33,556 nt of DNA from Microcystis aeruginosa Ma_SC_T_19800800_S464 (GTDB lineage Bacteria; Cyanobacteriota; Cyanobacteriia; Cyanobacteriales; Microcystaceae): positions 1 through 33,556 of the forward strand of contig SFBL01000161.1 in the NCBI GenBank assembly GCA_007095785.1. The letters run 5' to 3'. The notes beneath the pieces are model-generated. The model searched no databases, was not told the DNA's origin, and saw only the letters and a program-made list of their open reading frames with translations. A program made the translations under genes and the position numbers. Of the stretch, positions 17,311 through 18,291 are shown in pieces. Numbering within the stretch: position 1 is the first letter of the stretch; every line of letters begins with the position of its first letter.

Positions 17311-17342
17311 AAAATAGAGATAAATATTTCTGTAGTCACAAG

Positions 17343-18291
17343 ATGCTAAATCTATTTAACTCGCTTTTTGGGCGTTATAACGAGAATATCAAGGCCAATG
17401 TGGAAATTTACCTTAAATGTCGGCTTGAAGGAACTCTCGGTTTTACCTCGGAGATGAAAGGTTCCGTCAATATAAAACAGCACTTCGACACATTTCGACA
17501 GGCTCAATGTAAAGGCTCAGTGACACGAAGCACAGCTAAAAATAAATGTCTAATCTCAAGAGCAAAATCTCGAATAACTTCTGAAATTGTTAATTGCATT
17601 CTAGATGCGTATTTTGAAGTGCGCTTGCTCATATTCGGAGTCATGAGCATCGGCAGTCTTTTTTCTTTTAAGGGTCTTGACATACTTACGAAAAATAGCT
17701 ACTATGTGAGCATAGCGGATAGGGTAATCAACCGCTCTAAAAACCCATGTAGTCTAATCACTACAACCTCTGCACCTTGACAATCAAAGATATAGGGTTC
17801 TACTCAATAGTTCTAGTTTCTCACCTGCTCGTGATGTAAAATCTTTGTAGGAACTAGACAAAGCAGTATTTGAAGCTAACGTTTCAATTAAAGCAAATTT
17901 TGTAGAAATACAACTATCGTGGGGCGCACGAAAAGTAACGCTTGGGGAAAGAACCACCTCTGTTTTAGATAACGCAAGGAATCTAAAGTAAGTGGACTTG
18001 TTGAACCAAGAATCCCTCGCATGAGTGCGATGGGAGCGTCAAACTTGGGCAACTTGTCCCTACTGTATTCGAGCTAAATGGTTGCTGGGTTGGAAAGGAG
18101 TAAAATACACCGAATACAAAATTGATGGGGATGAAAGCGCTCGTCAAGCCATGGCGGAACGTGCCAAGGGTAAACGCAGTGTACCACAGATTTTTATCAA
18201 TAATGAACCTATCGGTGGTTGTGATGATTTGTATGCTTTGGATGGTCAGAAAAAATTAGATAATTTATTGGCTAAATGTGGGACTATCTAA
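17343..18291 (+). pseudogene. grxC: Glutaredoxin gene split by an insertion
   Basis: Bases 17343-17411 encode MLNLFNSLFGRYNENIKANVEIY (23 residues given in two runs: MLNLFNSLFGRY, NENIKANVEIY) and bases 18043-18291 continue TWATCPYCIRAK to the stop. Joined, they give a normal-length class I glutaredoxin of about 105 residues: strand VEIYTW, active site CPYC, the glutathione-binding region SVPQIFINN and GGCDDLYAL. Between them are 631 bases with IS608-like ends. The reading frame entering the insert continues to 17780 with unrelated sequence. A GTG at 18025 is in frame with the second part and could in principle start an 88-residue product lacking the native first strand. The end overlaps tadA by 16 bp. 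Confidence 0.85.
17412..18042 (+). mobile_element. IS200/IS605 (IS608-like) non-autonomous element in grxC
   Basis: The left flank ends in TTAC, the left cleavage site of IS608. The right end reads GAAT (18010-18013), hairpin ccctcgca / tgcgatggg with one unpaired T (18014-18034), then TCAA (18039-18042), which are the IS608 right guide, hairpin and right cleavage site. A weaker hairpin with an unpaired T lies near the left end (17434-17453). No target duplication is seen, as expected for single-strand transposition. No intact tnpA or tnpB is present; a plus-strand frame near 17863-17988 ending NARNLK may be a tnpB C-terminus remnant. A further small palindromic repeat lies at about 17482-17533. 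Confidence 0.75.

Follow-up and report, generated by a model that had tools for sequence, protein, structure and literature searches.

How does a mobile element that seems to lack any protein gene come to lie in a glutaredoxin gene, and what would keep it there? The question is raised by a locus of Microcystis aeruginosa Ma_SC_T_19800800_S464 (contig SFBL01000161.1; the window is the whole stretch of 33,556 nucleotides that was analysed), where the glutaredoxin gene (17343-18291) is cut exactly in two by a 631-bp insert (17412-18042). The original prediction, made from the letters of this DNA, was that removal of 631 bases joins both halves in frame at NVEIY/TWATCPYC, that the insert has the ends of an IS608-like element, that its last bases would form the 3' end of a TnpB guide RNA, and that a TnpB acting in trans could keep the element in place. 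The gene and the element ends are arranged as follows.

17343..17411, plus strand: glutaredoxin gene, 5' part, 23 codons ending in ...NVEIY.
17407..17411, plus strand: TTTAC, insertion target left of the element according to sequence comparison, and putative TAM.
17412..17490, plus strand: left end of the element, CTTAAATGTCGGCTTGAAGG..., an imperfect hairpin as read by eye, the first 48-61 bp being 94-97% identical to several copies.
18010..18042, plus strand: right end of the element, GAAT-CCCTCGC...GATGGGAGCG-TCAA, read in the sequence, a pattern that recurs across the genus.
18043..18291, plus strand: glutaredoxin gene, 3' part, TWATCPYC...GTI*.

The letters before and after the left boundary of the insert are ...GGAAATTTAC and CTTAAATGTCGG..., and those before and after the right boundary are ...AAGAATCCCTCGCATGAGTGCGATGGGAGCGTCAA and ACTTGGGCAACT. 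The 5' part of the gene translates to MLNLFNSLFGRYNENIKANVEIY and the 3' part to TWATCPYC...GTI*, the 3' ORF being a match to Pfam Glutaredoxin (E 6.9e-18). When the locus was compared in 12 genomes of the genus, the own genome counted in, eight empty and three filled sites were found. In the eight (G001, G003-G007, G010 and G011) the flanks abut in an uninterrupted gene, as the predicted in-frame join demanded; an intact 105-residue ORF is present in seven of these empty alleles, and for the eighth (G006, L074) the comparison was made at the level of codons. The insert occupies the same base in G000, G002 and G009, own genome included, with lengths of 631, 662 and 641 bp, respectively; in the remaining genome (G008) the match stops near a contig edge. 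Base 17411 is C, completing TTTAC, in the three filled and in four of the empty alleles, and the other four empty alleles deviate and read TAT in the corresponding codon. There is no target duplication and the insertion lies 3' of a short target, as in the IS608 group. Among the filled alleles of the three genomes the insert is nearly identical and the 3' flanks differ, a combination that fits, rather than proves, a spread by recombination, homing included.

Several other features were noticed around this gene. In G002 (L064) the 3' glutaredoxin part holds a second insertion that is unrelated to the first; it is ~1.15 kb long, has inverted ends of the GACCTCTCC type and what looks like a target duplication of 5 bp, and leaves the gene doubly interrupted. 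Extra DNA of ~110-170 bp is found between the preceding gene and glutaredoxin (near 17326) in four of the eight empty-site genomes (L067, L068, L070 and L074). In the window copy, a GTG of the right-end hairpin (18025-18042) shares the reading frame of the 3' glutaredoxin part and gives an 88-aa ORF that keeps CPYC; this in-frame GTG is absent from the other two filled alleles. A short repeat of the TTCGACA type near the left end (near 17484) varies in length among the three glutaredoxin insertions (L062, L063 and L064).

The interrupted gene could go on working if the insert were spliced from the glutaredoxin mRNA, in the manner of an IStron. The glutaredoxin parts of G000 and G009 differ at 7 of 318 bases, with six synonymous changes and one non-synonymous change, a ratio that speaks for this reading; however, the insert itself differs by short indels and, at three places, in nine columns altogether, and from the divergence of insert and gene the insertion allele may have been shared recently. 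If it was recently shared by recombination, the 6:1 ratio need not postdate the insertion, and selection on the split gene was for that reason discarded as evidence. Given also that no group I or group II intron was matched in Rfam, and that the same gene holds the second insertion in G002, we regard splicing as extremely improbable.

The IS608 right-end motif is GAAT-hairpin-TCAA, and in the IS200/IS605 family what TnpA requires of an element is its ends. The right-end pattern GAATCCCTCGC-N(2-14)-GANGGGAGNGTCAA occurred 89 times in 12 genomes and its reversed control 0 times, and a recognisable left end was present in 10 of 21 ORF-less copies examined, all 10 with TTTA[CT] on the left; the IS608-like ends of the original prediction are thereby upheld. 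A search for relatives gave 37 matches to the insert in its own genome, itself included. One relative, C163:2945-4728, has such ends and is the only one in this genome having both tnpA and tnpB; its tnpA is broken, its tnpB frame is open over 397 aa, and its TnpB is 79% identical to that of the Microcystis phage LMM01; the same genome has 11 PF01797 (TnpA) matches. The ends of the insert also occur in the genus on tnpB elements with a length of ~1.4 kb or, in four cases, ~1.8 kb. A TnpA profile, which like its TnpB counterpart was a home-made HMM built from proteins of the own genome, matches all four ~1.8-kb relatives and otherwise, among 53 control loci, only a phage locus, where it detects the phage tnpA. 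The insert itself appears to be protein-free, with neither tnpA nor tnpB within it. On these comparisons the insert is taken as a non-autonomous IS200/IS605 (IS608-like) element, one that a Y1 TnpA would mobilise.

Sequence analysis further indicates that a deleted IS does not describe the insert in full, as the insert includes a promoter-like sequence followed by a structured RNA of ~330 nt that reaches the right end.

17677..17705, plus strand: sigma-70-like promoter, TTGACA-17-TACTAT, with 10/12 matches.
17711..18042, plus strand: conserved structured RNA of ~330 nt in the alignment of full-length copies, with a putative 5' end and a would-be guide after its 3' end.
17714..17736, plus strand: P1, AGCGG/CCGCT, from the alignment; its loop GGGT (17722-17725) pairs with ACCC (17743-17746).
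17770..17865, plus strand: core of the 5' domain (model R2), CTGCACCTTGAC...GGAACTAGAC, from covariance model and alignment.
17914..18042, plus strand: guide-RNA scaffold of the TnpB type (model R1), with stem 1 TCGTG/CACGA, stem 2, stem 3, the pseudoknot CTTGG/CCAAG and the right-end hairpin.
18043..18058, plus strand: first 16 nt of the would-be guide, within the glutaredoxin gene, the length being that of ISDra2.

Shuffles of the promoter region gave a mean of 2.0 sites where 2 were found, hence the promoter match alone is not significant; a TANNNT motif precedes 45 of 52 named copies (29.9 expected). The last 129 nt of the insert can be aligned to the 3' ends of tnpB elements, with stems 1-3 and the pseudoknot kept despite differing letters, so that the predicted guide-RNA-like 3' end has a shared scaffold behind it. 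For the scaffold alignment A1 (56 rows, tnpB elements included), 19 loci were dropped for truncated, unalignable or different right ends, followed by L108, L113, L020, L024 and four identical rows; since the rows of A1 and A2 were cut at a stem 1 located by pairing (at least 4 of 5), stem 1 is favoured in both. In the 56 sequences 90.2% of cells are paired, with 260 compensatory cells, and 0/500 shuffles reached the values for cells paired, compensatory cells and covariation score; pairs with a double change (259/500) and pair types (318/500) were not above the shuffles. The 18 ORF-less copies taken alone have 92.2% of cells paired and 25 compensatory cells in 8 pairs, again with 0/500 shuffles for these two measures and for the covariation score, 12/500 for pairs with double changes and, for pair types, no excess (185/500). 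In both scaffold sets, structures slid along the alignment paired in 24-40% of cells; six to seven of the 18 copies have an unpaired pseudoknot pair.

For the complete RNA, full-length copies were required to have the anchor and the right-end pattern; 57 were found, 40 were kept (<90% identity) and 39 were referenced. The alignment A3, whose rows were cut at a sequence anchor, consists of the 30 of these 39 without large internal insertions, belonging to 13 families of the order according to the genome labels of the R1 scan, with RNAs of ~310-345 nt. Its structure, derived from the same alignment plus one pseudoknot added by hand, has 71 pairs with 94.7% of cells paired, 41 of them with double (compensatory) changes in 314 cells; 0/500 shuffles reached any of the five measures and slid controls paired in at most 44.7%. 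P1 (5 bp) is fully paired in 34 of 40 copies, the best register being taken for each copy, 96.7% of cells in its loop helix are paired, and UGAC of the core (17778-17781) pairs with GUCA (18038-18041) at the tip of the right end, which closes the RNA immediately ahead of the guide. The window RNA, whose helix-4 variant breaks part of that helix, folds better than shuffled sequences (z -2.40, 0/100). A conserved RNA structure in the ORF-less copies is thus well supported by these alignments. G-U pairs are frequent in them, which would fit RNA rather than single-stranded DNA. At the gathering cut-off, Rfam 15 gave no match in the window, and permissive scans of the insert and 14 relatives gave none above it; a self-splicing intron and a HEARO/IscB RNA were rejected, neither having an Rfam match.

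Whole blocks of 8-10 bp distinguish near-identical or same-site copies (L062 vs L063; L002 vs L115 and L124; L118 vs L120; L064 and also the tnpB element L186). The pseudoknot site is either CTTGGGGA or GCAGGCGTG and helix 4 either GTGAGTAGG or CTCGTGATG; each variant is able to form a local hairpin in place of the long-range pairing, and the right-end loops vary likewise. Template switching or exchange between copies are candidate explanations for these differences.

A simpler account of the insert would be a plain MITE, that is, an internally deleted IS608-like element moved by TnpA, in which the structure is left over or forms hairpins of single-stranded DNA for TnpA only. From what is known of the family its ends would suffice for TnpA, and its 3' end resembles those of tnpB; this account has to face the compensatory changes in stems away from the ends, the G-U pairs, and an extra domain that was not found in the tnpB-side loci searched. 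We find it quite improbable. The candidates for a parent of such an element were likewise rejected: the ~3-kb copy of G001 is an ORF-less element with an inserted antisense ORF of 576 aa, probably another IS, and a tnpB-bearing parent with the 5' domain was sought with R2 in 31 tnpB-side loci, none of which had the core, the only match being one of 14 bits (E 0.42). The ORF-less scaffold type is also absent from the tnpB elements collected from the genus, the nearest right ends of which are 71-74% identical over the last ~131 nt (BLAST).

The RNA extends far beyond the genus. The genome counts obtained with R1 and R2 are lower bounds, given the strict filters used, with up to 28 (R1) and 11 (R2) candidates scored per genome. 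With tnpB elements, which it also matches, counted in, the 129-nt model R1 was found in 94 of 120 genomes from the order. Its best matches outside the genus are mostly of the other kind: at 20 of 27 loci there is an upstream anchor matching the middle of the insert, and three (L240, L244 and L245) are of the tnpB type by appearance; a further 40 loci comprise 17 with the anchor, 7 with a tnpB motif and 16 with neither. The R2 core was found in 55 of 386 genomes of the phylum, from 30 of 142 genera, often in multiple copies. An exact core pattern, which misses the window copy (helix-4 variant) and was used as a finder rather than as a definition, occurs in at least 112 stretches of named genomes. 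Of the 80 stretches listed, 77 are labelled as cyanobacteria (Planktothrix, Nostoc, Dolichospermum, Anabaena, Arthrospira, Scytonema, Crocosphaera and others) and the other 3 are MAGs that carry a Gracilibacteria or Chloroflexaceae label and may have been mis-binned; the R1 scaffold follows the core by 40-209 nt in 71, and of the nine without R1 seven are no farther than 106 nt from where the fetched sequence ends. Weaker R2 matches amount to 41 rows from 15 genomes; the 21 inspected are mostly ORF-less relatives with other right ends, among them a class-level relative with 16 matches, and at least two (L353 and L354) look truncated or due to chance. Copies are also present on two cyanobacterial plasmids. 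The insert belongs to a widespread, phylum-wide family of elements carrying only a structured RNA, with a promoter-like sequence and an extra RNA domain of ~200 nt, which reaches beyond the view of the original prediction. No report of this RNA was found in the literature searched at the level of titles and beginnings of abstracts, with most subscription papers and bioRxiv outside that coverage.

Since the family carries only this guide-RNA-like RNA, its elements probably borrow proteins made by others. The TnpB profile matched at 4 of 100 RNA loci vs 42 of 51 control loci, and the TnpA profile at 0 of the 100, some sites being repeated in these sets. Among the 80 named stretches listed, which are up to 8 kb long and in 43 of which the RNA is flanked by 1 kb or more on either side, TnpB was matched in five, in one of them within 300 nt and antisense, and TnpA in none. 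Since tnpB in cis is absent from the window insert and rare at the other RNA loci, the element may be said to work like a TnpB guide RNA, not to be a standard member. Presence of TnpB (PF07282) and TnpA (PF01797) in whole genomes was scored as family matches at E 0.001: in the 386-genome sample, R2 was found in 55 of the 118 genomes with both, whereas none of the 22 that have TnpB alone, none of the 76 that have TnpA alone and none of the 170 that lack the two gave a match. This co-occurrence, which is confounded by phylogeny and IS load, fits a dependence on both proteins in trans.

The RNA might instead be functional with another partner, either because the 5' domain binds a dedicated trans protein or because the RNA regulates tnpA/tnpB or, as a decoy, TnpB activity. 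Such a partner would account for a core absent from the 31 tnpB-side loci, apart from the 14-bit match, and yet kept in different families as well as in copies whose right ends differ; against it, the 3' 129 nt keep a TnpB-type scaffold with compensatory changes and the core was never found without TnpB in the 386 genomes. We hold this reading to be unlikely.

The reading that we prefer, and consider probable, is that of a transposon reduced to a guide RNA, moved by a borrowed TnpA, with its RNA loaded by a borrowed TnpB, and kept or spread in trans. It builds on the exact insertion, the ends, the site common to three genomes, the conserved RNA structure, the observation that near the loci tested tnpB is rare and tnpA is absent, and the co-occurrence of the RNA with TnpA and TnpB. 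The element, holding an RNA gene and no protein gene, would move as single-stranded DNA with the help of a TnpA that is supplied from elsewhere and, judging from the family, recognises the ends and the TTTAC target. An RNA of ~330 nt would be made from its own promoter, the last ~129 nt folding like a TnpB guide-RNA scaffold, and read-through past TCAA would add the flank, here the glutaredoxin gene, as the guide. The TnpB of another element would then load this RNA and cut TTTAC-flanked empty sites, for example after excision or on sister chromosomes, and repair of the cut site would copy the element back. In this manner the element would be kept, and may spread between lineages, while encoding no protein. 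Retention by a TnpB in trans, the last claim of the original prediction, is plausible, and is better motivated now because the ORF-less scaffolds show compensatory changes and the RNA core occurs only where TnpA and TnpB were found among the 386 genomes.

Against this reading stand the missing ORF-less scaffold type in the tnpB elements collected from the genus, the broken tnpA of C163, the unpaired pseudoknot pairs and the helix-4 variant of the window copy, the promoter match at chance level, and the measures on which the two scaffold sets do not exceed shuffles. We know of no role in TnpB function for the 5' domain, which also counts against it. So does one report, in which the ISDra2 guide RNA expressed without TnpB was undetected in cells (PMC10097598), and therefore a lone RNA may be unstable. 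The 5' domain may, as a guess, stabilise an RNA that is not co-made with TnpB, replacing the protection that TnpB gives in cis.

Phages provide a setting in which all the components occur together. The RNA is matched in five records of Nodularia phages, one of them a RefSeq duplicate, and TnpB matches occur in these phages too; the RNA copies were found by BLAST, although the exact core pattern gave 0 matches in viral contigs. The phage vB_NspS-kac65v151 has an intact RNA (R2 103.1 bits, R1 122.9 bits) downstream of a ribonucleotide reductase gene, an IS200/IS605 transposase/tnpB pair (gp004/gp005) and another tnpB (gp172) immediately upstream of the reductase gene; both tnpB 3' ends match R1 (65.9 and 56.2 bits). 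The reductase gene flanked by the ORF-less phage RNA (L483 3500-3798) contains an intein, and an intein-containing reductase gene with an adjacent tnpB is a neighbourhood associated with homing elements. A short annotated ORF, gp174, runs antisense over the 3' part of the RNA and may not be a gene.

Taken more broadly, we lean slightly towards an old superfamily of protein-free transposons in cyanobacteria and some phages, whose only gene would be the ~330-nt guide RNA with its new 5' domain and which would parasitise the TnpA and TnpB of others, each insertion acting as an RNA-guided drive against empty sites and one nuclease serving many ORF-less copies. If so, a selfish element would have reduced itself to a guide RNA and two ends that exploit the nucleases of other elements, which would bring it a step closer to guides that act in trans, like those of CRISPR systems. 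A single phage genome would then offer a natural system combining TnpA, TnpB and a guide in trans; the RNA would also represent a large new family of structured RNAs and supply candidate scaffolds for the guides of small nucleases.

Among the known systems, stand-alone trans-acting IscB omega RNAs and PATE-type IS605 MITEs likewise have a guide RNA or the ends and no nuclease gene; the IscB type, unlike the insert, has its guide on the 5' side, and we know of no long conserved 5' domain of this kind in either. IStrons, of which ORF-less copies exist (PMC4227781), also join an RNA element to IS605-type ends, whereas the insert has no group I intron match. RAGATH-18 RNAs are guide RNAs of IS607 TnpB of which 64% (10,258/16,029), and so not all, lie beside IS607 TnpB (PMC11061315); the insert has a weak RAGATH-18 match at 17941-18012 (E 0.36, 21.2 bits, below the Rfam cut-off of 44.9) but is of a different IS family. 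As in a TnpB guide RNA (omega RNA, reRNA), the insert has a 3' scaffold with stems and a pseudoknot and a guide at the 3' end; in contrast to it, the RNA overlaps no tnpB and has a conserved 5' domain that a search of tnpB loci did not reveal there.

For the IS608/ISDra2 systems, the literature describes a TnpB guided by RNA from the right end, with a TAM that is the TnpA target, TTAC on the left in IS608, and proposes that TnpB cuts the donor joint left behind by excision (PMC8612924). The guide of ISDra2 is given there as 16 nt (PMC8612924, PMC10097598), density was seen only for the 3' ~116 nt before it, the 5' region being dispensable for cleavage (PMC10097598), and TnpB is reported to be able to drive an IS through plasmid populations (PMC11870625). 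The R1 part of the insert (129 nt) is about the size of the bound ISDra2 RNA. As in these systems, the insert has its target on the left (TTTAC here), a GAAT-hairpin-TCAA right end, no target duplication and a would-be guide from the right flank; unlike them, it is without tnpA and tnpB and has its own promoter-like sequence and an extra RNA domain of ~200 nt.
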